Of a DNA stretch of 64,000 nt, positions 1,520 through 53,634 are shown one piece after another. The stretch is from Platerodrilus igneus. Taxonomy: Eukaryota > Arthropoda > Insecta > Coleoptera > Lycidae. How positions within the stretch are numbered: the first letter of the stretch is position 1; each line of letters begins with the position of its first letter. Location: positions 186,001-250,000 of the forward strand of contig JARFIW010000836.1 in NCBI GenBank assembly GCA_036346225.1, given 5' to 3'. The notes beneath the pieces are model-generated. The model did no database searches. It was given only the letters and a program-made list of their open reading frames with translations, and was not told the origin of the DNA. The translations under genes and the position numbers were made by a program.

Positions 1520-3639
1520 TGTAACAAAATTTGTGTTACATTAAATATCTCTAAAGAAAATCATTTCTAACCGTTGTTGTTGCACGAATTTGTCATTTAG
1601 CGTGAAATCGTTAAATAGTTTAATTTATTATAAGTAATTACATCTCTTGCCTTTTTACATTATTTTCACCTATACGGAGTATTTAATAGTGACTCCTACG
1701 CTTTTGATATCGGCAAATACCCAGAACGTAACTTGAGTTGCATAAGTTACAGGCGTTCTGAAGTCCACTAGTGCAATTGCTAGACACAACGCCTGCGCGT
1801 AAAGTGACGCGATAGCTAGGGTGTTGGCAAGGAAGCGAACGAAGCCATCTTGCAAGCAACTACGTGGAGGGACACTTCATTTTGAAGATGGGGAACTTTG
1901 GTTGTAAGTGGGAGCTGAGAATAGCTCTACCATAAAGGAAGGGCTAGAGGTTGCCGTGCGGAGGCGTTACAATAGAGCTCTTGTGATGCTGCCCAGACAA
2001 CCTAGAGCAATAGTAACAACACGTGGTGAGGAAGTCGATTAGTGCACATTTAGGAAACACGTTTGACAATGAGATTGGAACTTGCTTGTGTATTGTGGAA
2101 TTACTCATTTTGAAGCTGTGCGAGGAGCTGCATTTAGTAAAGGCATATTTCGTACCTTTCTAAATTTCAAGCAGATGGAATGTTATGTGTCTTGGTTGGT
2201 CTACTACAATTATCAGCATCACCGTCGTTTAATTAAGGCAAAACCAATCAGGTACTTATAAAACTATTTACTGAGAATTAATTTTACGAACTAATAACGG
2301 TCAAAGCTTTGATTTAACATTTACCAAATCATAAGAAACTTTTGTTAAAAATGTAAATGTCAAGTTTTTTGCAAGATATGTTTATGCTCAAATCCACGTA
2401 AAAATCAGTTTGAGAATTATACCCTAGAAATTTAATAGGTCAAAAACTTTTTTTGTTCAGAACTAAATTTTTTTATAAGAGGAATTTTTGAACTTTTAGA
2501 TTAATTAAATTAAGGTGTTATTCAAGGCACGTAAATGATGCACATGTTAATTGAGAAAATAAGTATAAAGTCCACTTTTAATTGAAAAATGTTTACTTGC
2601 AATATGTTATGTGATTAGTAGAATATCTATGTTGCTTCTAACATATGTTGAACTGACTTTGTTTAATTTCATATAATGCTTAAGCCATATGAACTTTTTA
2701 TGTAACAAGTTCTTTAGAGAATTTTTGTAAGCCAGAACAGATCTGTTTTATGGATGTTAAAGAACCCGACTGTATTAAATAATTTATAAATGCTAAGATC
2801 TCTCTATGTAGAGAAACAAATTCAGAGATTTTTGAAACTTACTTTATGTTGATTACATTGATTATAGAGAAACACACTAAGAAATTTTTGAAACTTATTT
2901 TATATTGATTATTAAATTTTTTTATAAATAATTTTTGCAACAAAAGAGAATAACATTTAAATTATACTTTGATATAAAACTTTCGTCTTTTCATTTCACT
3001 AATTGAAATTAACGTTGTCCAAATTAGATAAGCAAAATTTTGAATGTGGAACTTAGAAAAAAGTTGATACAGTACCAGGTAAAAGAAACAGAGTAAATAA
3101 TTTTCAGCAGAGAATATTTTCATAGGTAAGGTGTTGTTGAGATTTTGAATTCAGGACAGTCAATTTATAAAGACCGAAATATTTTGTTGTCGTAAGACAC
3201 AAACAGTGTCTTATATTTTATTTTTTTGTGTGACATTTTCTTGCAGGTCCGACATTGCAGAAGTTGGAGCAGAGGTCCAAGAGGTTTCCAGAGGTATTGC
3301 TTATTTTGATTTGTATGCTTTTTGATAATCATTATATCCTATAGGTTTCTGCGTCTTCCTGTAGGATACTTTAGTCTTATTTATTGTCTATATAGATGCA
3401 GTGGCGCTCATTCCCCTTTTTTTGTTCCCGTTTATAGTCGAGCCCAACCTATATCCACGCCCAAACTCATTGCTCACCCTTGGGGTAATTTCCAGACTAA
3501 GCCGCGAATATAGTAAAACTCGTGGGTCCACTGAGGTTTTGTTCACTAATTGACTCGCTCCATAATTAAATTAAATAAAGAAAAAATCTAAAGTTTCACT
3601 GGCGCCCATATAAGTTCATTGGCGCCCAAGAAAGTTTCA
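1520..3639 (+). repeat. 5' LTR of the 7.85-kb Gypsy element
   Basis: Begins TGTAACAAAATTTG and ends GAAAGTTTCA, so it has TG...CA ends. It matches 7254-9370 almost base for base. At 2.1 kb it is unusually long for an insect Gypsy LTR. Its last 40 bp contain two primer-site-like motifs (TGGCGCCCA at 3600 and TGGCGCCCAA at 3620), described separately. The 61-codon minus-strand ORF at 1670-1855 looks like a chance reading frame. Confidence 0.85.
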
Positions 3640-4709: not shown

Positions 4710-6057
4710 AGTTAATGTTGATTCCGATTGTCTTAGTCGTGCAGTTCCAGAAGAACATCATATCGTAAATTTAATAGAGGTCTAGCTTGATAATTTAGAA
4801 AATTGGTATGTGTCGTTGCGTAAGAAAATTTTGGCGTCGCCTGAGAATTACCCTCAATGGAAAGTTGAGAACGAGTTTGTTTTTAAGTTTATTTCGTCAA
4901 ACCTGCCTATGCCGTCAAATGTAGTAGAGTGGAAATATTTAGTGCCAAAAGTTCAAAGAGAAGAAGTCATCAGATCGTGTCATGACCCCTCAGTTGCAGG
5001 ACATTTTGGGTTCTCGAAGACAATTGCTAGAGTCCAAGAACATTATTATTGGCCCAAAATGAATTTAGATGTGTTGAAATTTTGTCGTGCATGTTTAGTG
5101 TGTGGTGCGCAAAAATCTTCTAATGCAGGTCCTTTAGGTTTAATGGGAAAGGAAAAAGAGGCCAAGTTTCCATTTCAAATTGTCGCGTTAGATCTTATGG
5201 GTCCATTCCCTCGGTCAAAATTAGGATTTAAATGGTTGTTGGTAGTAGGAGACTGGTTCTCAAAATATACAATTCCACATCCTTTACGCAGTGCAAAGTC
5301 ACATGTTGTTGAACAGTTTATGGAACAGAAAGTTTTTTTAATGTTTGGTGTGCCCCAATTTATTATTTGCGATAATGGTTCAAATTTAGCTGGTCGAATT
5401 TTTAAGTCATTATGTAATCGGTTTGAAATTCAAAAGATATGGTATAATGCTGTTTATGCGCCACAATGTAATTTTGTTGAGAGGATTAATAGGACGGTAG
5501 GGACAGCTATTCGATCCTATCTCGAAGAACATGATACTTGGGATACTGAGTTAGCGCAGATTCAATTTGCTATTAATTCTGCTAAGCATGAGTCGACGGG
5601 TTATACTCTGAATTTTTTGGTTTTTGGCCGACACGTCCCCATATCCGGTAAATTTTACGGTAGTGGATTTATTCCTGAAGCTGATGTTGAAATCATTCCT
5701 GGTAGTCGCCCATTATATGCTTCAGACCATCAAGGTATTTTTAAGGTATTTGAAGACGTTCGTGCGAAGTTGCATGTAGCTTATCAAAGGTCGAGCAATC
5801 GATATAATCTAAGGAGAAGGAACATTTCATTTGAGGTTGGTAATAAAGTATGGAGGGCCAATAAGGTGTTGTCGAGCGCGGCTAATAAATTTACTGCTAA
5901 ACTTGCTCCAAAATTTGTTTTGAGTGTAGTCAAGAAGAAGTGCTCGAATGTGGTGTACGACCTAATTAATTTAGATGGATCAAAGGCAGGCAGGTGGCAT
6001 GTCAAGGATCTAAAACCCTATTCTGTCGTAGATCCAGAATATGTACCAGAGGACTGA
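4710..6057 (+). CDS. pol: Gypsy RNase H end and integrase
   Basis: This codes for a Ty3/Gypsy integrase, which joins LTR cDNA to target DNA. The reading starts with an RNase H tail (VDSDCLSRAVPEEHHIVNL, 4710-4785), then a TAG near 4784, then an open frame from ATG 4810 to 6057 (415 residues). Within it are an HHCC zinc finger (HDPSVAGH, then CRACLVC; residues about 58-98), and a catalytic core with Asp in VALDLMGPF, Asp in FIICDNGSN and Glu in CNFVERINRT. The second Asp and the Glu are separated by 35 residues, the canonical D-D-35-E. The C-terminus has a basic segment and VYDLINLDGSKAGRWHVKDL, the GPY/F-type end. All catalytic residues are present. The internal ATG at 4810 is probably not the native start, because the domain is normally cut from a polyprotein. 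Confidence 0.85.
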
Positions 6058-7253: not shown

Positions 7254-9370
7254 TGTAACAAAATTTTTGTTACATTAAATATCTCTAAAGAAAATCATTT
7301 CTAACCGTTGTTGTTTCACGAATTTGTCATTTAGCGTGAAATCGTTAAATAGTTTAATTTATTATAAGTAATTACATCTCTTTCCTTTTTACATTATTTT
7401 CACCTATACGGAGTATTTAATAGTGACTCCTACGCTTTTGATATCGGCAAATACCCAGAACGTAACTTGAGTTGCATAAGTTACAGGCGTTCTGAAGTCC
7501 ACTAGTGCAATTGCTAGACACAACGCCTGCGCGTAAAGTGACGCGATAGCTAGGGTGTTGGCAAGGAAGCGAACGGAGCCATCTTGCAAGCAACTACGTG
7601 GAGGGACACTTCATTTTGAAGATGGGGAACTTTGGTTGTAAGTGGGAGCTGAGGATAGCTCTACCATAAAAGAAGGGCTAGAGGTTGTCGTGCGGAGGCG
7701 TTACAATAGAGCTCTTGCGATGCTGCCCAGACAACCTAGAGGAATAGTAACAACACGTGGTGAGGAAGTCGATTAGTGCACATTTAGGAAACACGTTTGA
7801 CAATGAGATTGGAACTTGCTTGTGTATTGTGGAATTACTCATTTTGAAGCTGTGCGAGAAGCTGCATTTAGTAAAGGCATATTTCGTACCTTTCTAAATT
7901 TTAAGCAGATGGAATGTTATGTGTCTTGGTTGGTCTACTACAATTATCAGCATCACCGTCGTTTAATTAAGGCAAAACCAATCAGGTACTTATAAAACTA
8001 TTTACTGAGAATTAATTTTACGAACTAATAACGGTCAAAGCTTTGATTTAACATTTACCAAATCATAAGAAACTTTTGTTAAAGAATGTAAATGTCAAGT
8101 TTTTTGCAAGATATGTTTATGCTCAAATCCCACGTAAAAATCAGTTTGAGAATTATACCCTAGAAATTTAATAGGTCAAAAACTTTTTTTGTTCAGAACT
8201 AAATTTTTTTATAAGAGGAATTTTTGAACTTTTAGATTAATTAAATTAAGGTGTTATTCAAGGCACGTAAATGATGCACATGTTAATTGAGAAAATAAGT
8301 ATAAAGTCCACTTTTAATTGAAAAATGTTTACTTGCAATATGTTATGTGATTAGTAGAATATCTATGTTGCTTCTAACATATGTTGAACTGACTTTCTTT
8401 AATTTCATATAATGCTTAAGCCATATGAACTTTTTATGTAACAAGTTCTTTAGAGAATTTTTGTAAGCCAGAACAGATCTGTTTTATGGATGTTAAAGAA
8501 CCCGACTGTATTAAATAATTTATAAATGCTAAGATCTCTCTATGTAGAGAAACAAATTCCGAGATTTTTGAAACTTACTTTATGTTGATTACATTGATTA
8601 TAGAGAAACACATTAAGAAATTTTTGAAACTTATTTTATATTAATTATTAAATTTTTTTATAAATAATTTTTGCAACAAAAGAGAATAACATTTAAATTA
8701 TACTTTGATATAAAACTTTCGTCTTTTTATTTCACTAATTGAAATTAACGTTGTCCAAATTAGATAAGCAAAATTTTGAATGTGGAACTTAGAAAAAAGT
8801 TGCTACAGTACCAGGTAAAAGAAACAGAGTAAATAATTTTCAGCAGAGAATATTTTCATAGGTAAGGTGTTGTTGTTGAGATTTTGAATTCAGGACAGTC
8901 AATTTATAAAGACCGAAATATTTTGTTGTCGTAAGACACAAACAGTGTCTTTTTTTTTGTGTTACATTTTCTTGCAGGTCCGACATTGCAGAAGTTGGAG
9001 CAGAGGTCCAAGAGGTTTCCAGAGGTATTGCTTATTTTGATTTGTATGCTTTTTGATAATCATTATATCCTATAGGTTTCTGCGTCTTCCTGTAGGATAT
9101 TTTAGTCTTATTTATTGTCTATATAGATGCAGTGGCGCTCATTCCCCTTTTTTTGTTCCCGTTTATAGTCGAGCCCACCCTATATCCACGCCCAAACTCA
9201 TTGCTCACCCTTGGGGTAATTCCCAGACTAAGCCGCGAATATAGTAAAACTCGTGGGTCCACCGAGGTTTTGTTCACTAATTGACTCACTCCATAATTAA
9301 ATTAAATAAAGAAAAAATCTAAAGTTTCACTGGCGCCCATATAAGTTCATTGGCGCCCAAGAAAGTTTCA
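7254..9370 (+). repeat. 3' LTR of the 7.85-kb Gypsy element
   Basis: Starts TGTAACAAAATTTTTG and ends GAAAGTTTCA. It is nearly identical to 1520-3639, with scattered substitutions and small indels (for example a shortened T tract near 8950). Like its partner, it carries two vestigial TGGCGCCCA motifs at 9331 and 9351 inside its own 3' end. Confidence 0.85.
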
Positions 9371-9374: not shown

Positions 9375-10742
9375 GTCACACCAAACTGGTTCAAACTTTT
9401 GATTCAGAAAGTCATACAGTAGGTTTTCCTCAATAAAAGATTCAAATGTTTCTAAATGTTGATTTGTAATAAGTGGATTAGGTTTTTTCAAAATCTTATT
9501 TGAAGACTCACTTACTAAAGAATTACATTTTACTATTTTGGGATTATTTACAAGATCGGCGTTAAACGGACACAAACAAACAAACGGACCAGTTGTTCTA
9601 AATGCATTTTTTTAGGATTTTGCCATTAACCTAGAAAGTTGCTAAAACACTTGATTCAACAACTGTGCAAAATCTTTCTTTTTTAGCACCTTTAATTTAT
9701 TTTTATTACGCCAGTTGTAAATTTAAGTTCTCCTTTTACTTTTAAGAGGATGAAATACACCAACATCCATTGGTTGCATGAAGTGGGTAGTATTTGGCAA
9801 TAAGCTTATTAATATTATACCATGTTTAGAACAAAATTCACCTAGGTGGTATGTTACGTGGGATTTGTGGTCATCTACATATAAAATTATTGGTAGTGAA
9901 ATTTCTTTTCGTATGACCCATGGATGAAGGGTGTTTGTATTGTATTCTAAAAAGCTTTTGGATGTCATCCATCTGGTCTTTGATTTCCCTAAATCACATG
10001 TTGGATCTGTACACTTTAAAACAATTGATTTTGGAATGCGTTCATAACTGAACATAATCATAGGTGGTGCGAGTTAACCAGATGCATTTCCTATATACAG
10101 AACGGGCACTATAGTATTCACATGGCCAATGAAACGAGCAATCTACAAACCTGCAGACAGTGTTGCTGTACACTCCTTGTCACTTGCAATAGTTACAGTG
10201 TATACTGTTTTAGCTCTTTTTTTGGCAAGAACTGTTTTACCCTTTCGAGCTAAAAAAAATGCAGCTTCATCTGCATTAAAGATTCTTTTAGGATCTTTAA
10301 TATCTAGATTGTTATGGACAAAATGTTTCTCTATTTCCTCAAATCACTTTTGAATGTTCTCTTCTGAGACATTATAACTGCATTTGGTAAGAGTTTCGGT
10401 CATTCTTTGAGAAATATCTAGATGTCTAGCCAAAAAGTCTTTGTACCAATGTCGCCAAAGTCGATCATTAGTAAATTTAATAGGTCTCTAACTTTTTTAT
10501 TATCATAGCTACATTGTCTAAAAGATTATCTTTAGTTATTGCTTCCTTCGCAAAAGTATGTACAGTATTTATACTGCTTTTACAAACAATGAAATATCTC
10601 CCAGAAACTTTATACATGATAGTACTTCGTGGTATATTAAATTGTTTGGTAGCAGCTATGCAAGGAGTTCCACTTTTAACAGCTTCAACCGCTTTTTTTT
10701 AGATCTTCCAAAAAATAAGTCAAATATACTTTTGATTTAGAT
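9375..10742 (-). pseudogene. Jerky/pogo-like DDE transposase, N-terminal and catalytic part
   Basis: This is a Tc1/mariner-superfamily transposase of the pogo/Jerky kind (DNA cut-and-paste). From 10742 leftwards: start MPSKSKVYLTYFLEDLKK, then after a 1-2 base shift in an A run a Psq-type helix-turn-helix (SGTPCIAATKQFNIPRSTIM). Next comes the DDE domain with its first Asp in RIFNADEAAFFLARKGKTV (about 10280-10240), the second in ILYVDDHKSHVTYHLGEF (about 9880) and the third-acidic region LLPNTTHFMQPMDVGVFHPL (about 9770). A C-terminal piece WRNKNKLKVLKKKDFAQLL (about 9700-9650) and FRTTGPFVCLCPFNADLVNN follow. Several stops and frameshifts break it. The remainder of the gene lies left of the LTR insertion (1-1515). 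Confidence 0.85.
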
Positions 10743-11448
10743 GGCATTTTTATTGCTTAAAATAAGACCAAATTTGAATTTTAAAAATGACTTAAAGTTG
10801 ACCCAACATACTGTATATTTGAAATGGGTGTCAAATTTAGGAAATACATTTCTATACCAAGAAAATAGATTGAAAATTAGTTTTACATATAAATAGGACA
10901 CGTTAAACAAAGAAAATAAATAATTTTTATACAAGGGCCAGTTGTACATATTTTTAGTCAAATGTACAGTAAAGCTTATCAAAGTTGTCCCTAAATTTGA
11001 CACCTATATAATCAAAGATTATTTTTACTTGTTTAACTATTTTAGGTAAAATTTATAATCTCCTAACTATTTCAATAAAGTAAACATAAGAACTGACAAA
11101 AACATAATTATTTATACTTTCTGTCAATTAATGTTTAATATAACTCTTGCAGCACCACCTAAAATACAATGCCTACTAACTAGATTAAAAATGGCCGCCA
11201 TAGTAGATACAGACAAATTGCTATATAATACAATCATTTACCTCTGAAAAATAGTTAAAAGAAGAGCAACTTATTTTAAGGAAGTTGAAATATGTACGAA
11301 AAACAAAAACAAATAATAGTATCTAACAAAATATAAAACATACACTTATTACAATTTGTTACATAAACATATAAGTATCTTACTTACCTTAAACCTTTTA
11401 CATTGTGGTATATTTCTTTTACCAGACGCAAGATAGGTTTTGGGTCTT
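10743..11448. other. Transposon 5' flank; inverted repeat
   Basis: No coding sequence recognised. A perfect 15-bp inverted repeat, GGTGTCAAATTTAGG at 10827-10841 and CCTAAATTTGACACC at 10990-11004, lies just upstream of the transposase start. It may belong to the terminal or subterminal region of that DNA transposon. The element's other end is outside the window, so this could not be checked. Confidence 0.35.
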
Positions 11449-11996
11449 TTGGAGCGTCTTTTTAAAAAGGTTTTTTCCAAAAAAACTCTTTTATCGATTT
11501 TATTTAAACAGAAATTACAATATGGATTTTAATAACAGGTACGTATTGAAATCAAAATATTCTAAGTTGGCAACCACTATTTCATTTAACTAAAATTAGG
11601 GTGAGTAGCTTGAACAACCAACAATATTAAAGTTGTGAAACTCGAGACTGACTGACCTTCCTGGGGTTTCCAGGGTATTTATGTTATCTCTGCTCTTTAC
11701 ATGACTAGTGGGAAACGCAGATCTCACGTCTCTTGTTTCTTTATTCGATACAAAATATTACTTCTTAGTAATCTTATTTCTAACAATAAGTTTCTTATAA
11801 TTTATTGTGATCAGCACCTGTAGTGCCATGTTACGTCTAGAATACAAAGTAGTTGCATCCGTTCTCATGTCTGGTTTATAACCTTCTATTAACCTTTTGT
11901 AATATGTTCTTCAATTATACATTGTAACTATCTATTTTGTAGATTTAGTAGTTCCATTTGATTATACTTACATACTAATTTGGGGGATATGTAACT
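11449..11996 (-). repeat. 3' LTR of the minus-strand errantivirus-like element
   Basis: On the minus strand it starts AGTTACATATCCCCC at 11996 and aligns with 15117-15680 through CTTTTTAAAAAGACGCTCC. Similarity stops near 11449, short of a TAACT end, so its outer end is deleted or replaced. Confidence 0.7.
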
Positions 11997-12009: not shown

Positions 12010-12116
12010 ATGAAAATTAAAAGTTGTACTTAATTTTTAGAACTCATTGTCCTTAAGGGATCTCTTATGATTTCTTTATTTACCTTTGTTTCTTTGTTCT
12101 TATGACTAAAATTTGT

Positions 12117-13290
12117 TTAATTGATTCTATATCTAAGATACATTTTGTACAATAAATACATAGTTAATAAAATTATTACAATAATTGATAAAAATGTGCA
12201 AACACTGATATTATCGTAGTGTAGTTTTGGCACTTTCACTTCATTTAAATGTTTTTTGTAACTGCCCATTAATTTTATGGGTTGGTCGAGGTCGTCTAGG
12301 TCTAGATGTTCTAGTTGCATGGTTTTTTGATGATTTCATCGTCTTCAATTTGTGTAGTCTTGAACTGTAGCTCGGTTAGATTTGCGAATTTCTTCGTATT
12401 GCTGGGTTTTGGTATACCCGAATAATTTCGTTGTTCAATTTTAAATAGCAATCTTCTTTTATTGTGATTACCTTGCTTCCAATTAAAGCTCGACTGTTTT
12501 TGTCTTGGTTGCAATGGGCGGTTGTTAGTACTTCTTGTGGAAATACAGCAATCAATTTGTTGTCCGTGACTTTTTGAATGTTTATGTTTGTAATTTGTAC
12601 TGGTCTTGACTCGCAAATTCTCTTAGTGATTAGAGAATCTTAATAGTTGTATTTCACAAAGGCTATTCGTTTGAATAGCTGTCGTCGTTAATAATGGACA
12701 TAAATATTGGCTGGGTGCACCTTTTTTGCACTTTTCATTCGTGAAGCCATACCTAAATTCATTTAGGAAAAGGAACTTGGTTTTTGGAATAATAACTTAA
12801 CACTGGCTAGCAGCTTTTATGGGGAAAGCAAATAAATGATAATAAGTATAAGGGTTAATTTCTACAATGGGAATTTCTATTAAAAACGCAATTTCATGAT
12901 TCTTTACATAACCTTTTACTATGGCTATTTTTTCAAATGAAAGTATGTTGGATTCTGTTACACCAAAGGTAGTTTACTATTTGTTATGAGTGATCTAATT
13001 CCTAATAATTCATTTAATAAATCAATTGATTCTATAATACTAGCATGTAATGTGTTTAATTTAGCAAATGTTACAGCGTTTTCTAACGTGGCTAAAATTT
13101 GTTGAATTATGGTAATGGTTAATATCATCTGATTGAATATCGTGTTGAATATTATTAAATCTCGCATTCCTAACATTGTGGTTTGCATGTTACTTTCAAG
13201 GGTTATTATTCTGTTAGTTATACTGTCTTGGTTCTTTACTAATTTACTTTACTTTACTCATTGAATTTTACTATGGTCGACTGGGTTAAG
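12117..13290 (-). pseudogene. env: Errantivirus env, ectodomain remainder and membrane anchor (decayed)
   Basis: Continuation of the F-like envelope fusion glycoprotein after frameshifts. Recognisable blocks, each aligning with the env of the plus-strand copy, are: MLGMRDLIIFNTIFNQM (about 13170-13120), ENAVTFAKLNTLHASIIE (about 13085-13030), FANLTELQFKTTQIEDDE (about 12385-12330) and LHYDNISV followed by a hydrophobic membrane span (about 12220-12140), then a short basic cytoplasmic tail ending at 12117. Several reading-frame changes make it non-functional. The first part of the 12311-12616 open frame is out of register with env and is not the real product. Confidence 0.7.
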
Positions 13291-13302
13291 GATATTTGAT
13301 GT

Positions 13303-13965
13303 CTAATAATAGTTTTTGTCATTCTGATTTTCAATTAGCTGTTGTATTGCGTGGTCGTATCGTTTAGCATCTTGGTTGTCTAAATTACTTATAATAGCTT
13401 TTATAATATTATGTAGTCCGTTAATAAATCCTCTTTTCTGTTTTGTGATTTGGTCTGTTGGTATTAATCGATTGAATTTGTCGTTTGTGTTCTTTAAGAC
13501 GTTATCCATTATATTTTTGTAATTAAGCATTTTTATCGCGTATTCTTTTCCGAATTTAGCTGTGTTCATTGATTGTTTCAGTTTGTAGTAATTATCCCTA
13601 ATTATATAAAATTCTCGTTCTAGTTCGGTTATATCAAATTTCTGCGCGAATATCCAGTAATCTATTGTATTTTTCATACTTCCCAATTTTACTGGTAGTA
13701 TACCGGAGTTGTTTTTAATGTCTTCCACTATCGTCATTGTCGTCCGTTCTACCTGGGTGGAGGTTGACGGCAAGGGTGATGGCTGTCTATCTAAAATTAC
13801 AGGGTCTCTTAGATTCCTTAAGTGAATGTATTTTACAATTTTTTCGTTGTCTACTCCGGCTACATTTCTATCTGATATTTTTTTGATTTTAAACGGACCT
13901 AAATTTCTAGGGGCCGTTTTTGTGTCTCTTACTTTTAAAATTTTTCTCATACACGGTTTGTCCTA
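13303..13965 (-). pseudogene. env: Integrase tail joined in frame to errantivirus env N-terminus
   Basis: The 215-residue frame starts with the integrase C-terminal APRNLGPFKIKKISDRNV (residues about 13-30), where GPF is the GPY/F signature. It runs without a stop into the env ectodomain (NTIDYWIFAQKFDITELE). A basic cleavage-like site KQKR precedes GFINGLHNIIKAII, matching the furin site and fusion-peptide position of errantivirus/baculovirus F-like envelopes; DNQDAKRYDHAI follows. In the plus-strand relative the integrase frame stops and env lies in another frame, so the in-frame joint here reflects a small indel. An env splice acceptor (TAATTTTAG) is conserved before the env part. Confidence 0.75.
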
Positions 13966-13991
13966 CTGAAAATCTATTTATATTGGCGTTT

Positions 13992-15052: not shown

Positions 15053-15680
15053 AGTTATATCAGTTTCCTTTCTTTGTGTTGTTGAGCTTAGTCGCTTTTG
15101 CGCCTTGTCCAAATTTTTTGGAGCGTGCTTTTAAAAAGGCTTGTTCCAAAAACACTCTTCTATCGATTTTATTTAAACAGAAATTACAATATAGATTTTA
15201 ATAACAGGTACGTTATATTCAGTAACGTATTGAAATCAAAATATTCTAAGTTGACAATTACTATTTAATTCAACTAAAATTAGAGTGAGTAGCTTGAACA
15301 ACCAACAATGTTAAAGTTGTGAAGCTCGAGACTGACTGATCTTTCTGATTTCTTAGGATATTTATGCTATCCCTGCTCTTTACATCACTTGTGGGAAACG
15401 CAGATCTCATATCTATTGTTTCTTTATTCTATACAAAGTATTACTTCTTAGTAATCTTAATTCTAACAATAAGTTTCTTATAATCTATCGTGACCTTCAC
15501 CTGCAGTGTCATGTTACGTTTGAAGTACAAAGTAGCTGCATCCGTTCTCATGTCAGGTTTATGAACTTCCATTAACCTTTTTGTAATATGTCCTTCAATT
15601 ATACATTGTAAAAATCTATTCTTTAGATTTAATAGTTTTATTTGATTATACCCATATACTAATTTGTGGGATATGTAACC
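15053..15680 (-). repeat. 5' LTR of the minus-strand errantivirus-like element
   Basis: On the minus strand it starts GGTTACATATCCCAC (first base changed from AGTTA) and can be followed to ATATAACT at 15053, so the ends approximate AGTTA...TAACT. It matches the 3' LTR over about 560 bp with many substitutions and is therefore older than the LTR pair of the plus-strand copy. Confidence 0.7.
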
Positions 15681-15739: not shown

Positions 15740-16239
15740 GCCAAAGAATTATATTAGCAAAGTTTTCAGTTTGCAACACTGTCCAATCATCCTCTTCATC
15801 CTCAATTGGATGGAATGGTTGAAAGAATGAACAGGACATTAGGAAAGTACCTAGTCAAAGTTGTTTCTGAACATCAACGAGACTGGACTAATATTTATAT
15901 TTGTTCCTACTGGCGTACCGATCTTCGGAACATGACAGCACAGAATACTCTCCCGCTTGCGTGGTGTTAGGACGTGAATTGGGACTACCATGTGATCTTT
16001 AGTTTAAATCTGGAGAGGAGGTCGCAGATGAAGACTACGTTAGTAAGCTTTGTGAAAGATCAAATAACATTCACGAAAACGTTCGAAAGAATATCCAGGC
16101 GGCAAGCGATCGAATGAAATCACCATATGACACGAAAGCACAAGTAGGTAGTTACCAACCTGAAGATTTAGTGTGGTTGTACAATCCACTAAGAAGATTG
16201 TCGCCAAAATTGTAAAGACAATGAGAAGACTCGTACAAA
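15740..16239 (+). pseudogene. pol: Gypsy integrase core end (macro-domain element)
   Basis: Broken integrase of a third Gypsy lineage. ISKVFSLQ (about 15750) is followed by HPQLDGMVERMNRTLGKYLV (from about 15802), where the catalytic Glu is in MVERMN, then VVSEHQRDWTN and, after frame changes, LPCDL (15990) and the C-terminal linker CERSNNIHENVRKNIQAASD, RMKSPYDTKAQVGSYQPED and LVWLYNPLRRLSPKL. It leads into the open frame at 16240. The 5' part of the element is missing: the errantivirus-like LTR abuts it at 15680. Confidence 0.75.
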
Positions 16240-16608
16240 GTGTTAAAAAGAATTAATGATGTAGTGTACTGGATCAGAAGATCTCCCCGTGGTAAACCGA
16301 AAGTAGTACACTTTGACCGTTTAACATCTTACGCTGACAACTACCAGGAAGACGCGAGTAATGAAAATGGTGTTCGAAGAGTTATTAATCGCGAGCCAAA
16401 TGTAGATTTTGAGAGTTTCATGGCAGCGTATGGTGGTTCCTCTAAGGCGAGATTTGGCGTTGTTGTTGAAAAACAGCAAGATCTGTTTAGAGCACCACAA
16501 GAGTATTTTCTTGCACATTGCGTAGCTCAAGATCTGCAAATGTCAAGGGGAATAGCTGTTATTTGCAGGAAAAAGTTTGGATGTGTGAATAAATTAGTGC
16601 AACAGTAG
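16240..16608 (+). pseudogene. pol: Integrase C-terminus fused in frame to macro domain
   Basis: One open frame of 122 residues contains two unrelated domains. Residues 1-30 are the integrase end (VLKRINDVVYWIRRSPRGKP then KVVHFDRLTSY). After a 30-residue linker (INREPNVDFESFMAAYGGSS) a macro domain begins: FGVVVEKQQDLFRAPQEYFL, AHCVAQDLQMSRGIAVICRK, KFGCVNKLVQQ. It resembles OARD1/TARG1-type ADP-ribosyl hydrolases (which release ADP-ribose from acidic residues), with the usual MGAGIA loop altered to MSRGIA and the lysine of the KKFG segment kept. The ATG at 16240 is internal; the true start is upstream in pol. The TAG at 16606 is the first of several nonsense changes; the domain continues beyond it in the same frame. 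Confidence 0.75.
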
Positions 16609-16911
16609 CCACTTGAATGAAAAGCTTTGGTTCTTTAAGATGGAAATCGTTATGTTTACTATCTGGTCACCAAAAATTCTTCATGGCAGAGACCTAGGTA
16701 TAGACATCTACGGGAGGTTTTGCTGAATCTTAAGGCTCAGATGATAGAAAATGGAGTAACGAGACTAACGGTGCCCAAACTAGACTGTGGACTGGATCGC
16801 TTAGATTGGAGAATAGTTCGAAATATGTAATTGTTGAGAAAAACCAACATCCCGGTTCTTGTTTGTCGCTATCAACCGGTTGCCTATCAAGACCAAGAAA
16901 AGAGTGTTGAC
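16609..16911 (+). pseudogene. OARD1-like macro domain, second half
   Basis: In the same frame as 16240-16608, interrupted by TGA, TAA and TAA codons: DGNRYVYYLVTKNSSWQRPR, LREVLLNLKAQMIENGVTRL, TVPKLDCGLDRLDWRIVRNM, TNIPVLVCRY. CGLDRLDW is the signature around the OARD1 catalytic aspartate (CGLDRLQW in the human protein, from memory). The order and spacing of all macro blocks follow OARD1, so the whole domain was captured and not just a fragment. Every interrupting codon is one transition from a sense codon, as expected for decay after insertion. Role in the element is unknown; removal of host ADP-ribose marks is a guess. Confidence 0.7.
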
Positions 16912-16968
16912 TGTTATTTGTAACGACGTGGTGCATGCATCAGAGGAGATAGCTGCCGATATCGTCAT
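16912..16968 (+). pseudogene. CCCH zinc finger after the macro domain
   Basis: Still in the frame of the integrase-macro ORF: C-Y-L-stop-RRGAC-IRGDSC-RYRH, which is C-x7-C-x5-C-x3-H if the TAA is counted as one residue. GxCxRGxxCRYxH is typical of RNA-binding CCCH fingers. It would be the C-terminal RNA- or DNA-binding module of the polyprotein. After it the frame decays towards the LTR. Confidence 0.55.
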
Positions 16969-17099
16969 CATTCATCGAATTAGCGTCAAAACGTTTTTAC
17001 AATTACGGGACGTAAAGGTTTTAAAGAGTGGCAGTGTTACAAACATTGGGCAACCCGTCAAACACAGCTGCATAACCGAAGTATATTCTACAGGAGTCG

Positions 17100-17201
17100 A
17101 GGACCTTCGAGCAAACACCAGACTATGAATCATCTAGTTAATTTTAGGGTATATATAAGATCAGCGATGAATGTAGATCAGTTAGTCTACATCAAAATAT
17201 C

Positions 17202-17245
<44 letters not shown>

Positions 17246-17554
17246 TCTAGTGTATTGTTAGTTTCTCATTACGTTTTGAAAGGCCTATAGTAAATATAAA
17301 TTTGTGCTATGTGAACGTGCATATTGTACCGCCAGCCTGTACACAAATAGACAAAAGGGAAATAGATAAATTGTAGTAGTGTTTCGTGTTATTAAGAAAA
17401 CTAATGGTAAAGGAATTAGTTTAAGAAGATATTAGTGCTTGTCAATAGCATTAGTTTGATAGTGCTTCATTGTTAATTGTGAATAGTGAGTAATAAAGAC
17501 TTTTGTTATTACTTGTTCTAAATTGGTGAAACGCGTTAATAGTAGCCCGCTACA
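17100..17554 (+). repeat. Probable 3' LTR of the macro-domain Gypsy element
   Basis: Follows the pol frame and has LTR promoter architecture: TATATAA at 17151-17157, an arthropod TCAGT initiator at 17179-17183 (about 30 bp from TATA), a poly(A) signal AATAAA at 17492-17497 and an end near AGTAGCCCGCTACA (17541-17554). The exact start is not determined, since no second LTR is in the window. A (TA)n tract lies between initiator and poly(A) signal. Confidence 0.5.
17203..17243. repeat. (TA)n microsatellite in LTR
   Basis: About 20 uninterrupted TA dinucleotides within the R/U5-like part of the preceding LTR. Confidence 0.95.
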
Positions 17555-21840: not shown

Positions 21841-22289
21841 AAAATATCCATGAATGTAATTAATTATTTATACTTGTAACATTTAATTTATTGTTACTGG
21901 AAAAAGATTACCGTATCTCTAACAAAAACTTATCTAATAAAACACCATTACGTGAACAAGCATAGTTTACCATTAATTCATACGGTCCATACTAATCTAC
22001 AAATAACGTACGGAAATTCAACACATGTATAAGGAATTACCCCATTGTCTCTGTGGTTTACAACTGCTTTCTCTAGCTATTCCTGGGACAAGCACTATCT
22101 CATACAGTCAGCGACCTCGGATCAGTTGTTTTTTCCTTTCAGATATTAGCGTGATATGTACTACTTCTTACTATGCACAATGCCATTATTATCCATACGC
22201 AAAACACGTTGCTTTTTTATTTGATAACGCTGTGTTTCGCATATAACATAAACATTAAAAATTGCTCGTTCATAATTAATAAATGGCGT

Positions 22290-23075
22290 ACACTACAACA
22301 TGGATCGAAATACCGAAAATCAAAGCCAAGGAGCAGCAAAAGACTTAAGAGGTATAAAGCAAAAAAAAATCAGTTTTGTAAATTCGCCGGCATTTATAAG
22401 TTGAATTATCAACGTCATAAACAGATTTTTGAAAATCGTGTTTCAAAGCGAATTTTACTTTCAACAATTGCTCGGATTTACGATCCTCTAGGATTTATTA
22501 CACCATTTATTTTTGTACTCGAGCAACTCATTCAACAATTTTACTTTGGGTTGGGGGGTTGGATTGGGATGATCCTCATGCTGAGTTTATGGCTGTATTT
22601 TGCAAATAATGTTGTTTCTGAATTCTCTTGTAATGATTCAATCAAAATTCTTCGCTATATTCCTATTGACGATACCTGTAATGTACAATTATATGGTTTC
22701 TGTAACACGTCAGAGAAAGGATATTCTGCTATTGCGTACTTTCGTTTATAATATTTCTTTCAGGAAAAGCCTTTATGCTCTTTGTTAGGGCTAAACCAAA
22801 GGTCACCCTTTTGAAATGTTTGTCAGTACCTAGGCTTGAACTATGTGCTACAGTACTTTTATCCTAATTAGTACATTTTGTTAAAACTTCATATGCGCAT
22901 GTATCTTTTGAGAAAATCTGTCTTGATAAATATCAGTCCCTCATTTGACTTTTTTGCAAATTCTAATTCACATCTACATACTGCTTCCAGACACATGCAT
23001 TTGATTTGTTCCTTTGTATTCAATGTTCTTATATCATTCATTAAAACTTTACCAAAAACTTTTAAATTTATTTAA
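22290..23075 (+). pseudogene. pol: BEL/Pao pol fragment (RT end and RNase H)
   Basis: Typical BEL/Pao palm-connection blocks: FENRVSKRILLSTIARIYDP then LGFITPFIFVLEQLIQQFYF (22425-22545), SIKILRYIPIDDTCNVQLYG, FCNTSEKGYSAIAYFR (22630-22740), where the Asp of the RNase H motif FxDAS is changed to Asn (FCNTSE). Further frame-shifted blocks follow: SVPRLELC-like sequence near 22830-22850 and a HFVKTSYAH-like stretch near 22880. Both ends are truncated and no LTR is seen. Confidence 0.8.
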
Positions 23076-25935: not shown

Positions 25936-26860
25936 CATATTTCGGCATCAAGGAAACCTAAAATGTTTAGTAAGAGATTTGACAAACCTTAGGATGGAAC
26001 ACAACCAATCCCCATACCAGTTTGGAATGAAATGCCAAGATGTGAGAAGCTTAATCTTGACAAAACTCAAAATTGAAGAAACCGACCCAATGTAAGACTT
26101 TTAAAAACAAAAATGTACGACGAGATGGCATTAGATACCTATCTAAATGCACTACCCGAACGGCTTTCAGATAAAATTAGATTTCAACATGCCCAAAACT
26201 TAGAAGAAGCAATGAATATGATAATCGAAGAAGAAAATGTAATGTACTATAGAAACCGACTATATAACCCCAACGTGAATAAAAGCTACACGCCAATGAA
26301 AACTATACAACCCGCAAGACAAATAAATCCACAACAAAAATTTAACCCGTTCAATGCACAAACAAACCAAACGCGAACCAATAATCCACATTTTAATAAT
26401 TCAAACTTTAACAACCAATACAAACAATTTTCAAAACCAACGTTTTACCCGAACTTTTCAAAACCCGCATATCAACCAACATTTAACTCGAACTTTTCAA
26501 AACCTGCATTTCAACCGAGATTCAACCAAAATGTAAATCAGCAAAGACCAGCATTCAATGCGAATCCTATTAGAAACTCACCGATAATAAACAATAATAA
26601 TCCCAATAACTATTATAAACCCACACCAATGGATACCTCATCTGGTAACACCAGACCCAACACAAAAATAACACACATTAGACCAAACCCCAATCAAAAA
26701 CGCACTTTCAGTTCAGAAGAGCTATTTCATCAAAAGTAGAAGATTATGAAGATGACCAGAATAATAGCAATGGACCGTGAACGAATAATGAACAGAATCA
26801 ATCAAACCACTATGAACGCGAAGAACCATACGAAACTTACGAGGAGGACGACGAAGAAAA
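25936..26860 (+). pseudogene. gag: Errantivirus gag, N-terminally deleted
   Basis: Structural protein. It begins mid-domain at FRHQGNL (about 25936), then LRMEHNQSPYQFGMKCQDVR, a TAA and a frame change near 26095, and the open frame 26113-26739 (208 residues) starting MYDEMALDTYLNALPERLSD. The second half is Asn/Gln/Pro/Phe-rich with repeats around FSKPTFYPNFSKPAYQP, and has no CCHC knuckle, as usual for errantivirus gag. After the TAG at 26737 an acidic tail continues one frame over (VEDYEDDQNNSN, YEREEPYETYEEDDEENA) to about 26860. The gag N-terminus, still present in the minus-strand copy (FLRPLLSKLTGG), is missing here. Confidence 0.8.
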
Positions 26861-28081
26861 CGCGTGTTCAAATTTTCAAATGGACCACTTTATAAACGAC
26901 CAAACGTAATAAATCTAAATAATATGAATCACCTTGTATTACCCTATATCGAAATACCCCACGCTGAATTTAAATTACTAATTGATACCGGATCTTCAAA
27001 AACATTAATAAGCCCGCGAACAGTAAAGAAACATTATCTAAACTATGTAGAAAGCGAACCCTTCAAAATTAAAACCGCCTATCAAACAACCCTACACCAA
27101 TTCGTAGCAAACATACCTTTACCAAAAACCTTTAACGTAAAGATGAAACACAAATTCTGCATATTTGAATTTAATGACAAATATGACGGACTATTAGGAA
27201 TGGACCTTCTAAGAAAATTAGGAGCCAACATAGATATTAAAAACCGATTATTAAAAACCAAATATGGACGAATCGCCATTAAATTTCAAAACACCCAAAT
27301 TGACGAAAAATATACATTAGAACCCCGAACAGAAAAAAAGATAAGAATCCCCGTAAATTCAAATAATAACTTAGGAATAATAAACCACATAACTTTTCAA
27401 CAAGGAGTAGAAACCCCAACCGCATTAGTAAAAATCAAAAATAATTATGCCACAACGACAATATTAAACTCAAATGATTACCCCGTAGAACTATCTTTAA
27501 CAAACCCGATTAACGTAGAAGAATTAAATTTTAACGATATGGAAATAGACGAAAACCCAAACGAAGATTACGACCCCGTAGAAAACGACGAAATGTTAAG
27601 ACAAAATTTGAATAATATCCCATTTAACCGTCACATAAATCACGAGCAACAAAGAGCAATACAAAAACTATGTTTCGAATACCGCGATATATTCCATTGC
27701 GAAGGAATACCCCTAACCTTTACAAATACAGTTAAGCACAACATTGAGCTAACAGACAACAAAGCATACAGATTACCCCAGGCAAGTCAGGAAGAAGCTG
27801 ACAGACAAGTAGCCGATCTATTAGATCAAGACATCATACAACACTCCAATTCACCATGGAGCAGCCCCGTATTAATAGTACCAAAGAAACTGGACGCATC
27901 AGGAAAACGGAAATACAGAATGGTAATAGATTACCGCAAATTAAACGAAAAAACGGTAGACGATAATACCCGTTACCGAACATAACTGAGATTTTAGATA
28001 AGTTAGGCAAGTGCCAATATTTTTCGACGCTAGACTTAGCATCAGGATACCATACTCAGATTCACGTACCATATACATTAT
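26840..28081 (+). pseudogene. pol: Errantivirus pol: protease and truncated RT
   Basis: The open frame 26864-27985 (373 residues) overlaps the gag tail in the -1 register, as expected for frameshifted Gag-Pol. Protease: LLIDTGSSKTLISP (active Asp, residues about 39-52) and the IxGxD-like GLLGMDLLRKLGA (about 110). A linker leads to RT: YRLPQASQEEADRQVADLLD and SPWSSPVLIVPKK, then KYRMVIDYRKLNEKT (residues about 352-366). A single frame change near 27975 leads to [31 protein letters not shown], and RT then stops short of the catalytic FxDD. The deletion to the integrase tail starts here. Confidence 0.85.
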
Positions 28082-28440
28082 AACAAAGAAATCTATAAGC
28101 AATATGCCAAGGATCACAAAGAGAAACTAAAAATAACTTATGACAAAGTAAAGGACAAGCTAGATAACGATAAAGAACGCATTACCGCGACCCGTAATAA
28201 AAACTCATACCTAAACAAATTTTCCGTAGGACAAACCGTATTCGAAAAAAAATACCAAAGTAAAAGACACAAAACGGCACCGAGAAATTTAGGCCCCTTT
28301 AAAATCAAACGAATATCCGACAAAAACGTAGCCGCAATAGACGACGGCAAGATAACAAAATATGTTCACCTCAAAAATTTAAGACACCCTGTACTTTCAG
28401 ATGGACAGTCATCACCCTTACCGTCAACCTCCACCCAGGT
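28082..28440 (+). pseudogene. pol: Integrase C-terminal tail
   Basis: [20 protein letters not shown], then KNSYLNKFSVGQTVFEKKYQ, TAPRNLGPFKIKRISDKNVA and ITKYVHLKNLRHPVLSDGQ. This is the end of a Gypsy integrase with the GPY/F block (GPF). Zinc finger and DDE core are absent. The frame ends near 28460, overlapping the start of env, and contains a conserved splice acceptor CTTTCAG at 28394-28400. Confidence 0.75.
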
Positions 28441-30144
28441 AGAACGGACACAGAAATTATAATTGAAGACATAAAGAATAACCCCGGTATACTACCAATA
28501 AAATTAGGCGGTATGCAAAACACTATAGATTATTGGACCTTTACACAAAAATTCGATTTAACCGAGCTGAAGCAAGAATTTCAAATAATCAAAAATAATT
28601 ATTTTCGACTAAAACAATCAATGGACACAACAAAATTCGGAAAAGAATACGCAATAGAAATGATGAACTACGACAGTATAACAGAAAGTATTTTGAAAAA
28701 TATTGAAGACAAATTTAATCGACTAATACCTACAGAACAAATGACGAGAAGAAAAAGAGGACTAATCAACGGATTAGGAAACATAATCAAAGCAATTACC
28801 GGAAATTTAGATAATCAAGATGCAGAACGCTATGACAACGCAATACAACAATTGATAGAGAACCAAAACGACATCAAAACCATAATTACTAACCAAATAT
28901 CGTTAACTCAATCAACGATCATCAAATTTAATGAAACTTTAAGAAAATTAGTTAGAAATCAAGATAGTATTGCCAATCGAATACAAACCCTTGAAAATAA
29001 CATGCAAACTACCATGTTAGGCATGCGAGATTTAATCAGATTCAACACGATATACAACCAGATAATATCAACCCTAACTTTAATTCAACAAATCCTAACA
29101 ACATTAGAAAACGCAGTAACCTTTGCAAAATTAAATACCCTACATTCAAGTATCATAGAACCAATTGATCTATTAAAAGAATTATTGAGAATAAAATCTT
29201 TTATAACTAATAGCAAAATACCTTTCGATGTAATAGAATCAAACATTTTAATATTTGAAAAAATAGCTATAGTTAAAGGCTATGTAAAAAATAACGATAT
29301 AACATTTTTAATAGAAATACCCATAGTAGAGATTAACAATTACAATTATTATCGCTTATTTGCTTTTCCAATGAAAATGACTAGCACATACCAAGTTATT
29401 ATTCCAAAAACCAAATTCCTATCCTTAAATGAAAAAAGATATGATTATACGAACGAAAAATGTAATGAAGTCACGCCCAATCAATACTTATGCCAATCAT
29501 TGACAACAACAACAATTTAAGAAGACAGCCCTTGCGAAGTACAACTACTAAAATTTACCAATCACTACGAATATTGTGAAGCCAAACCTGTACAAATCAC
29601 CAACTTGAGAATTCAGAAAGTAACGGAAAATAAATGGATAGCCATTTTCCCCACCGAAGTAATCGCAACAATGTACTGTAATCAAGATGAAAGTAATTTA
29701 GCATTAACCGGAAGTAAATTAATCACCCTTAAGGAAAATTGTCATTTGAAATTAAAAAACGAAATAATTCGAATTTACCAAGATCCCGTACAAAGCAAGA
29801 AATTAGCAAATCTACCCGATTTACAAATCAAGATTACCCAAGACGAAAACGAAGAAATAATTCAAAAACCAATGCAATTGGAACACCTGGAATTAGACAA
29901 CCTCAACCACGCCATGAAACTCATGGAAGATTACAATGAACACCTGAACGAGATCAAGATACCCAAAGTGCACTACGATAATATTAGTGTATGGACAATT
30001 ATATTGATTATATTGACTATTTTATTGAAAATTTATGTAACTTACAAAATATGTATTAGATATAAAAATAATAAAGGAAACAGTTTTAGATTTAAGAAAC
30101 CCAAAGAAACAAATGTACCCCTAGAAAATATGAATTTTAAATGA
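28402..30144 (+). pseudogene. env: Errantivirus env (F-like fusion glycoprotein), one in-frame stop
   Basis: Envelope fusion protein of the errantivirus/baculovirus-F kind, mediating membrane fusion in intact relatives. The frame is open from the acceptor at 28400 to a TAA at 29518-29520 and again in the same register to 30144, so one nonsense codon interrupts about 580 codons. Features: a basic cleavage site RRKR (28747-28758), fusion-peptide-like GLINGLGNIIKAITGN, the conserved DNQDAERYDNAI, a heptad-rich helical region (about 28850-29030), Cys-containing C-terminal ectodomain and a membrane span (about 29985-30045) followed by a short basic tail. The N-terminal signal peptide is poor, perhaps supplied by splicing. 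Internal ATG codons at 28513 and 29605 are not the true starts. Confidence 0.85.
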
Positions 30145-47744: not shown

Positions 47745-47746
<2 letters not shown>

Positions 47747-50009
47747 CTCATATTTAGACCAGGGTAGAAAATTAATGAATTACATCAAATAATTTTAATC
47801 ACCGTGTATAAGGAATTTTATTAGATAATACGCTTTATTAAAAAGCCGTGGAGAATAAAAATTCATTCGTTTCATTAAAAATAAGAGATTTAAATTATTT
47901 ACAAGACGGTTTATATAAAAAGAAGCAGTATTAAAATGCTCCACGTGTAATATAATTATTTTGAGTAAAGAAGCAAATGGAAATTACGTGCAAAATTTAT
48001 ATTAATTGATTCGAGTTTGGGTAACAAGTATTAAACAAAAAGTACAGATAATAATTAATATTTGATTAGGAGTCACTAAAAATTAAAGGGTATTATTTTT
48101 AATTGAAGTTAATTGAACCATTAGTAACATATAATATGTATAAAAGCTAGTAAAAACCCAATAATATTCAGATCGTAGAAGTATTATGTTTGAACACCTG
48201 CGTATTTTAAATGTTTTATGTTCTGCGTAAAATTTGCAGATAACAAATGGGTACAGAGAATGTTGGGGAAACCGTTGCTTAAATTTTACGCGAAATGCTA
48301 ATAAGGTGGGTTATTTCACAAGCCCACATGGATTGAAAATAAGTCGATAATAAAGAATATCAATTTGCACCAATAAGAACAGGTTAGAAAAGGAAAGAGA
48401 AAATGCGTCAAGCAAAGACACTAATAAGTAAAAGGCGTGAGTTGAGCAACGTCACTGGGTTGCGATTGGTTGAAAATAAGAGGCAAACTTGAGAGGTAAA
48501 AATAACATTTCTGTATAAGAATTAATTAGTTATTCCCAGGCGTTGCGAGCCGTGTCGAAATTTCTGAGATTTAACTGGTGCGAGTGCAAATTTTATAAGA
48601 ACCGACGCACAGGCGGTCGAGATGGGAATATAGAATGAGAAATTCTAGAAACTGGCCGTTTCGAGGACAAAACCGACCGACAGGCTAACCACTATATATA
48701 ACCGGGTTAATATGAGTTTCTCTCTCTTAGATTTTCGATTTGATTCAATGCGTTAAACAGTGCTTTTTAGTTTTCCGATTTTGATAGAATAATTTAAACA
48801 GTTTGATCGTATATTTTGGTGATTTAAAACAGTTTGTTCTTTACGTGCTACAATGAATGTAATTTAGTGCACTTAGAAAAGAAGATACAAGGTAATAAAG
48901 TCTAGTATCACTGTACCAATTAGTCAAAATTGCAACGACAAATGAATACACAAAAGTAGGCAGTTTTGGCGTATATTTGTGAAAGAAGTATGAATTTCTT
49001 TGCTATTTTTCGGGGGTGTTAATAATTAAATGATTCGTAAACGTGTCTGTATCCACAAAACAAGCTTCAGATATACACAAATGAGTTCCGGAAAAGCACT
49101 GAAACAACTTTAAATGAATGGTGGTGTAGAAAATTTTAAAGGCGACCAGCAATACGAGGACCTAAACATAGCCCAGTTGGATTGGTGTGATTAACAGAGG
49201 ACGATATACATTGAGGCCACGAGTGCATTAACCTTCAGGTAACTTATGCTTTGTTGTTCGTTTTTTTTTGATGTTTTGGTGTGTGTTGAATAACTTTATA
49301 ATTGATTTACTTAAAATGGACAGTAGTGAAATTGTGCTAACAACAAATTTTTAATTTTAAGGTGAAATTTTCTTGTTTAAGTAGAAAGGAGTATTTAGTA
49401 TTGATGTTCTGGATTATGATAAAAATTTGGGTATGTCTTTGAGCTCAATTAGACGAACCTGGTTAATTAACGTAAAGGGGTGGGAGATGCTCCCTTTGTA
49501 CTCAGACTCAGGTCTGCATATATTGTTATATTAATTAGTAGGCATCTATAAGGACTTTAATTCTGGATGCACATTAAAATGATAATAAATTTAATCTTGA
49601 AATTTTATGATACTGAAATTAATGCTGAAATTTAATTTTGGAAAATTTAATGTATTATAAATATTGATGTAAATAGAGTTAACGTTGATGTTTGGGGTAG
49701 GAATGTATTTGTTTTTTTTTATGAATGAGGATGAAAGTTTTAACGAGGGGAGCAGCCGAGGCGATGAACAGAAGAAAGTCAACGGACCAGTTAAGTTAAT
49801 GAATAGCTTTTTGTAGGATTCACAGCATTCTTTGACACCCAAAAGTGAGGCTCGATTTTAAAAAGGTTTCACAGCATTCTTGACGCCCAAATCGTGAGGC
49901 TCGATTCTAATACAGGGAAACACAGCATTCTTTGACGCCAAATCTGTGGAGCTCAAATGTTTTTTTTTTGAAAGGGCCAGTTCCTGCAGATATGAGAGGT
50001 TTCACAGCA
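47745..50009 (+). repeat. Family R LTR R2
   Basis: TACTCATATTTAGACC to TTTCACAGCA, 2265 bp. TATA-like ACTATATATAACCGGG at 48691. The end contains three complete PBS-like units before the junction with the interior. Confidence 0.75.
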
Positions 50010-50038
50010 TTCTTTGGCGACCCAAACGTGAGGCTCGA
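49820..50038 (+). promoter_or_regulatory. PBS-like repeat array at R2 end and active primer site
   Basis: Four units, each CACAGCATTCTTTGGCGCCC-like followed by a variant of AAACGTGAGGCTCGA: 49823, 49869, 49920 and 50003. The last one, TGGCGACCCAAACGTGAGGC at 50015, is closest to the tRNA-Lys complement and lies right after the CACAGCA that marks LTR ends, so it is the probable working site. Confidence 0.7.
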
Positions 50039-50158
50039 GTTCCAAATAAAATTTTTGTGATTTTATTCCAGGAAACTGGCGATCTGAGAGAGAGAGAGTT
50101 TCTGTGTGTGTGTATAAATTTAAGAGTATTTTAGAGTGTGTGAGAGCGATTAGAACGT

Positions 50159-50452
50159 ATGCAGAGAAAAGAGTGGTTAAGGAGTCAAGGAGTGGAAATT
50201 GGAAGTGACGATAGTGCATTGTGTGAGAAAAATTCTAAAATGGAAGAAGCTGGAGGCAGTAGAGATCAGTCGAGGACGGAATCAGGGGATCAAGTAAACG
50301 AGATGATAATGAGAATGCTAGAGAGGATGAACGAAGAATCTAATAGAGCTAGGGAAGAATCCAATAGAAAATTAGAACTGCTAAGCGATGAAGCTAATAG
50401 AGCTAGGGAAGAATCTAATAGAGCTAGAGAAAAATCGAGAATTTTAAAGTAG
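50159..50452 (+). CDS. Family R ORF, gag-like coiled coil (unit 1)
   Basis: 97 residues starting MQRKEWLRSQGVEIGSDDSA. The second half is a Glu/Arg-rich helix with a repeated SNRAREESNR heptad-like module (LERMNEESNRAREESNRKLE, DEANRAREESNRAREK), predicted to be a coiled coil. No other domain. It resembles the N-terminal helical part of some Gypsy gag proteins only in composition. The same ORF recurs at 53635 with a Val-to-Gly change. An overlapping frame (50464 onward, entered through ENFKVVSFGLSAEKE) may be its original continuation after a frameshift that predates the tandem duplication. Confidence 0.45.
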   Translation: MQRKEWLRSQGVEIGSDDSALCEKNSKMEEAGGSRDQSRTESGDQVNEMIMRMLERMNEESNRAREESNRKLELLSDEANRAREESNRAREKSRILK

Positions 50453-53489: not shown

Positions 53490-53634
53490 TTCTTTGGCGA
53501 CCCAAACGTGAGGCTCGAGTTCCAAATAAAATTTTTGTGATTTTATTCCAGGAAACTGGCGATCTGAGAGAGAGAGTTTCTGTGTGTGTATAAATTTAGG
53601 AGTATTTTAGAGTGTGTGAGAGTGATTAGAACGT

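Follow-up and report, generated by a model that had tools for sequence, protein, structure and literature searches.

A 64,000-nucleotide stretch of the genome of the beetle Platerodrilus igneus (GCA_036346225.1, contig JARFIW010000836.1, positions 186,001 to 250,000; hereafter the window, with positions counted from its first letter) was found to carry, at 15758-17554 of the forward strand, what reads as the 3′ end of a 5′-truncated, decayed long terminal repeat (LTR) retrotransposon of the Ty3/Gypsy type, in which the integrase is followed by a TARG1/OARD1-type macro domain and a CCCH zinc finger. The join of these three parts was confirmed as a real observation. Given the observed architecture, shared frame, spread among beetles, single tree branch, kept catalytic dyad and the fold predicted for relatives, the macro–CCCH part is most likely a working ADP-ribosylhydrolase module of the pol polyprotein. 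With somewhat better than even confidence, we propose that the element lineage gained the macro domain and finger behind its integrase, apparently once, and that the intact module would be delivered together with the integrase, still hydrolysing ADP-ribose linkages and protecting the element.

The original prediction, made from the letters of the window, had placed the integrase end, the macro domain and the finger in one register, and the frame arithmetic bore this out, positions 16225, 16240, 16912 and 16954 all agreeing. An open reading frame at 16225-16605 on the forward strand (127 amino acids without a stop) spans the C-terminal domain of the integrase and the first half of the macro domain. 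It opens with Integrase_p58_C (16225-16326; PF22938, E 7.2e-11), and its residues 80-127 matched PDB entry 2eee, a C6orf130/OARD1 chain (E 3.8e-8); this first half of the macro domain, at 16447-16605, includes AHCVA and, at 16540-16557, MSRGIA. The second half lies in the open piece 16639-16827, which matched the same PDB entry across 58 residues (E 3.1e-14); a chance resemblance was ruled out by these three E-values. The last strand of the domain (NIPVLVCRYQP) and the start of the finger (SVDCYL) occupy 16831-16920, as judged by alignment with the relatives P0002, P0008 and P0009. The predicted macro identity was thus borne out by the PDB entry and fell short in Pfam, where the Macro model gave the second half 17.4 bits under a cut-off of 22; the OARD1 and CCCH assignments in the window are based on PDB sequence matches, spacing and relatives.

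Eight stops interrupt the frame between 16003 and 17034 (16213, 16222, 16606, 16618, 16636, 16828, 16921 and 16981), and the four from 16606 to 16828 fall in the macro domain. A frameshift lies upstream, within the integrase, at about 15919-15949. The end of the catalytic core (HPQLDGMVERMNRT) is read in a separate frame at 15758-15967, on the basis of its translation and of tblastn matches of P0040 and P0066 to 15794-15949 in frame 2, Pfam rve_3 reaching just E 0.053; the integrase past the core continues, interrupted by stops, in the frame of 16225 at 15919-16212 (tblastn matches of P0040, P0012 and P0032 from 15919, frame 1). No reverse transcriptase attributable to this copy was found upstream of 15758. 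A reverse transcriptase stretch was seen at 20543-19965 on the reverse strand, 36 % identical to that of a mussel-type element described below; it is not the relic's own, because its orientation is opposite.

When the open frame was used as the sole query, one protein with the same join was obtained, from the beetle Molorchus minor. A second search with part of that protein as the query gave 26 matches at E up to 10, and a profile search (four relatives and two window pieces) gave 426 matches at E up to 0.01, of which the best 120 were used; the spread reported here is a lower bound. Among the 130 database proteins fetched, 37 combined the integrase part with the macro domain, and the integrase came first in every one of them. 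The named carriers are seven beetle species of three families, from Molorchus, Aromia and Exocentrus (Cerambycidae), Callosobruchus, Gonioctena and Leptinotarsa (Chrysomelidae) and Pyrocoelia (Lampyridae). Brassicogethes (Nitidulidae), Aquatica (Lampyridae) and Holotrichia (Scarabaeidae) have an element-type macro domain on the same tree branch in proteins that fell short of the integrase profile, and all ten named species with an element-type macro domain are Coleoptera.

Because the same join is present in beetles of several families, it is a lasting part of the element and not an accident of one copy. In the relatives the macro domain and finger come after the integrase without a change of frame and have been retained in many copies from beetles, which agrees with their predicted membership of the element. 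A host-gene junction unique to the window was rejected, the same join being present in the 37 proteins, and a placement of macro domain and integrase in different frames of intact copies was rejected by alignments; neither was seen among the database relatives found. P0036, P0051 and P0053 lie on contigs barely longer than their reading frames, which argues against joining by gene models, and several beetle gene models are plainly imperfect (for example P0001, P0007 and P0062). The model P0062 (Holotrichia oblita) fuses an element-type macro domain with a protein of PF05225 (HTH_psq) and probably holds two mobile elements. Viral contigs were scanned as well, and no relative was confirmed in them. 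Two loci came from genome contigs. L001 is a Gypsy element of the mussel type that has no macro domain, and L002, on a contig from a bacterial bin, matches the macro part.

The macro domain is joined to the integrase by a linker (16327-16446; motif FESFM..YG..SKARFGV) that is common to the aligned relatives, the window reading FESFMAAYGGSSKARFGV and P0012 TFEDFMEQYSFGHKARYGV. In the structure model of P0035 a helix at residues 33-40 precedes the macro domain, and the mean predicted local distance difference test score (pLDDT) is 96 for residues 31-40. Mean identity among 12 relatives was 0.54 in the macro domain against 0.32 in the linker.

At the other end, the finger at 16912-16968 reads C-x7-C-x5-C-x3-H, interrupted by a TAA at 16921. 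CCCH fingers have the spacing C-x7-9-C-x5-C-x3-H, to which the window conforms apart from this stop, and its spacing equals that of the relatives' fingers. Conservation behind the macro domain was followed in 29 proteins, namely those of 54 hand-listed members of the element clade with a recognisable GxG-region motif and at least 75 residues after it; 21 of the 29 had an intact finger. Exact spacing was found in 25 proteins overall, with a positive net charge in 25/25. The best curated Pfam finger score among the relatives was 30.4 bits for zf-CCCH_3, with a cut-off of 31 (P0041).

A tail motif such as RRGQC, or KEGAVL in another register, was likewise present in 21 of the 29. Both tails would be compatible with one purine-rich DNA followed by TGT, that is, a polypurine tract and the first bases of an LTR. 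In the window, the putative polypurine tract TTTAAAGAGTGGCAG stands at 17020-17034, where the frame reads FKEWQCY against LRRGQC in many relatives, and it is followed directly by TGTTAC, the start of a putative 3′ LTR at 17035-17554 that ends in GCTACA and has TATA-like and AATAAA-like motifs. The macro domain and finger would therefore sit between the integrase and the 3′ LTR. The original prediction had suggested checking this placement; the tract and LTR of the window and the tails of the relatives fit an end at the polypurine tract, as far as protein tails can indicate. No second copy of 17035-17554 that could serve as the paired 5′ LTR was found by blastn in the 64-kb window.

In a tree of the macro domain, 27 element rows stood apart from 37 other OARD1-type rows with a support of 100/98, and 99 % of the 200 bootstrap trees recovered this split. 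The opposing rows are described as "other OARD1-type" for the reason that a few of them are proteins with long extra parts (for example P0067, P0088, P0112 and P0118), and the tree is unrooted. When two short window pieces were added, the support of the branch was 95/74 and both pieces fell on the element side. Among the rows of the tree, none was recognised as the host OARD1 of a beetle; such proteins may lie among the matches beyond the best 120 of the 426.

In TARG1 the nucleophile is K84 and its partner D125, with T83, H32, C33 and S35 at the distal ribose (PMC6397177); the partner is printed as Glu125 in PMC7050489. The original prediction had the OARD1 active site kept, and both catalytic codons are indeed present in the window, at 16672-16674 for the equivalent of K84 and at 16795-16797 for that of D125; its choice of the lysine of KKFG was wrong, however, the nucleophile being the K of LVTK. 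Of the 37 element proteins, 36 retain K84 and 36 retain T83; the column of D125 is covered by 33, and 32 of these have the aspartate. In the wider set of 54 proteins, partly hand-picked, together with the window piece, K84 was kept in 51/53 and D125 in 46/48. The prediction had also pointed to MSRGIA in place of MGAGIA; this is no evidence of decay, because position 42 is K or R in 39 of 76 other proteins (K in 33, R in 6) and S41 occurs in 12 of the 76, so the idea of a dead site was dropped. Of the 37 element proteins, 30 have R and 4 have K at position 42; MSRGIA is a loop variant typical of the element clade and not a sign of loss. The relatives P0008 and P0035 are predicted to have the macro fold, their models agreeing with human TARG1 to about 1.0 Å. 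When the charge of the macro domain was compared as an indicator of nucleic acid binding, no clear difference emerged (p 0.14).

These results are consistent with the following mechanism. A Ty3/Gypsy-type pol polyprotein would have gained a TARG1/OARD1-type macro domain and a CCCH finger behind its integrase, apparently once, and intact copies would produce the module within pol and deliver it with the integrase. The module would most likely hydrolyse ADP-ribose linkages through the TARG1 lysine/aspartate dyad, the finger probably holding it on RNA or another nucleic acid, and the use would be protection of element proteins or nucleic acid against host ADP-ribosylation. TARG1 removes ADP-ribose not only from modified proteins but also from nucleic acid, at phosphate ends (PMC7050489). 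Given the attached RNA-type finger, proteins or nucleic acid of the element are likely targets. The original prediction was supported in part: its element-borne macro domain and finger hold in the relatives, and the uses it suggested, counter-defence against PARP-type host responses or a role in integration, may apply. A narrower version, which we consider doubtful, has the macro–CCCH part strip ADP-ribose from RNA or cDNA ends of the element itself, the nucleic acid being held by the finger and freed by the dyad, as a counter-measure to marking of transposon nucleic acid by the beetle host; a role of RNA ADP-ribosylation in such marking is raised as a possibility in PMC7050489.

Several observations weigh against the proposed module. 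The TARG1-like pattern is given as TKx(30,35)Px[IL]GxGxD (PMC6397177), and its GxG phosphate loop is altered in the window and most relatives: 8 of 33 element proteins have the first glycine (G121), 16 have A and 7 have S instead, and outside the element set the glycine is present in 72 of 75; the window has D there. Because this glycine is lost, we class the domain as a divergent, element-borne branch that would work like TARG1, and not as TARG1 proper. Single copies have lost catalytic residues; P0050 has R in place of the lysine, P0062 has N in place of the aspartate, and P0051 is without loop, lysine and aspartate, yet its finger is kept. Conversely, P0053, P0061 and P0063 keep the macro domain and end in tract-like tails without a finger. 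These three share one starred tree branch with P0059 and the finger-bearing P0041, which suggests that the finger was lost there; the macro domain can thus persist without it. The finger is also poorly modelled (block means of 49-61 for residues 201-220 of P0035 and under 50 in P0008), and the Pfam scores for Macro and CCCH were under the curated cut-offs in all ten proteins scanned. The two profiles used for the residue and join counts were built from 12 of the counted proteins. Finally, macro and integrase identities scarcely correlated, with r 0.02 in 13 proteins (2200 of 5000 permutations were as high), 0.26 in the nine better-covered ones and 0.31 in six of these, the integrase pieces being short and uneven; joint descent after one gain thus stays a proposal, and an exchange of the macro module between elements is possible.

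Four other explanations were weighed against a protective hydrolase. In other LTR elements a chromodomain or targeting domain is placed at the integrase end, and because the module occupies this very site, we regard as the main rival an aid to integration, in which the module would act behind the integrase C-terminus like a chromoviral chromodomain, guiding or completing integration at chromatin or breaks that bear ADP-ribose. The constant order in all 37 proteins speaks for it, and accessory domains, chromodomains among them, are listed for LTR-element polyproteins (PMC6338049). It is nevertheless unlikely, as a reader would have no need of the hydrolytic dyad, which is kept, and the weakly conserved linker would permit separation from the integrase. 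The finger, moreover, is of a type common in RNA-binding proteins. The relaxed GxG loop points to another possibility, that the module merely binds ADP-ribose or RNA and does not catalyse. The low retention of G121 and the dyad-less P0051 with its intact finger would agree with such a reader, but the near-universal lysine and aspartate would not; where A or S replaces the first glycine the residue is still small, and G123 was kept in 32/33 element proteins. We hold this reading to be quite unlikely.

LTR elements are known to capture host genes, and a captured piece of host gene carried with no benefit for the element would explain the finger-less copies and the one copy without a dyad. This is improbable, considering that in Lampyridae, Chrysomelidae and Cerambycidae alike the module still follows the integrase, that the dyad is nearly always intact, and that the macro domain is better conserved than the linker. 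The window copy by itself would permit a still simpler account, a host OARD1 gene adjoining or inserted into a Gypsy relic here alone; this is refuted by the relatives, with the join common to 37 of the 130 fetched proteins and the linker motif common to the aligned relatives.

Compared with human TARG1/OARD1/C6orf130 (PDB 4j5r, 4j5s and 2l8r), the beetle module differs in being joined behind a retrotransposon integrase, in the loop MSRGIA for MGAGIA, in the first GxG glycine, mostly A or S, and in the CCCH finger behind the domain. The macro domain of DarG (PDB 5m31, 5m3i) differs, at 20-25 % identity; DarG is described as a bacterial antitoxin against DNA ADP-ribosylation, encoded in a two-gene operon. 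Ty3/Gypsy elements with Integrase_p58_C are alike in the C-terminal part of the integrase, and in them too the frame would be followed by the polypurine tract and LTR, which are putative here. On L001 the mussel-type element, unlike the beetle element, ends directly after its Integrase_p58_C-type end, without a macro domain. This element, with a Gypsy-type pol (L001 1257-5327 and 5441-6379), comes from a contig assigned to a Bathymodiolus gill symbiont, though probably host DNA, and a separate frame behind pol looks zinc-finger-like by eye.

The Gypsy elements of orchids that carry an AlkB m6A demethylase (PMC9289625) are likewise a Gypsy lineage with a fixed eraser and a proposed role in host surveillance of elements; they differ in using an additional reading frame and another chemistry, in being from plants, and in an activity shown in vitro. 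The same paper calls fixation of extra domains in LTR retrotransposons rare. Macro domains also occur in the epsilon-like endogenous retroviruses of fish (Basta 2009 as cited in PMC4977317), reverse-transcribing elements too, but with fish hosts and an additional reading frame; the macro class is not stated in the passage of PMC4977317 that mentions them. No account of an insect LTR retrotransposon with a macro domain, or of this beetle lineage, was found among the titles and abstract openings searched, in a literature that leaves out most subscription journals; this speaks only weakly for absence. If kept behind an integrase, an ADP-ribose eraser would suggest that ADP-ribosylation hinders retrotransposition in insects or forms one of its steps, and the module is a concrete protein for assay. 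It also carries a warning for annotation, as element pieces have already been named as host genes: P0055 of Leptinotarsa decemlineata, named ADP-ribose glycohydrolase OARD1-like isoform X2, has Integrase_p58_C, falls in the element clade and is probably element-derived. A second fusion of a retroelement with an OARD1-type domain is possible in P0112 and P0113, because their long tail, which holds VA[IL]DSGSVVHVANPDH, resembles Copia-type polyproteins.

The window holds further mobile elements. A second Gypsy-type pol end, a 423-amino-acid open frame with Integrase_H2C2 and rve at 4786-6057 (forward), is matched by parts of the fused relatives at 26-38 % identity and is flanked by 2.1-kb direct repeats that are 98.3 % identical (1520-3639 and 7254-9370). 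An LTR-like direct repeat (11447-11995 and 15116-15679, 86 % identical) ends just before the relic and may mark a nested element; between its copies, the stretch 12081-13980 is related, in reverse, to an errantivirus-like element at 26816-29520 (forward), which has one frame for a retroviral-type aspartyl protease and another for a Baculo_F-like envelope (PF12259, E 5.8e-24). A DDE_1 transposase frame was seen at 9726-10073 (reverse), and Pao-type peptidase (PF05380) frames at 22155-22748 (forward) and 59188-59817 (reverse). Direct repeats of 4.27 kb, 98.9 % identical, at 47745-52013 and 51224-55489 overlap each other and therefore form a tandem array of units of about 3.5 kb.
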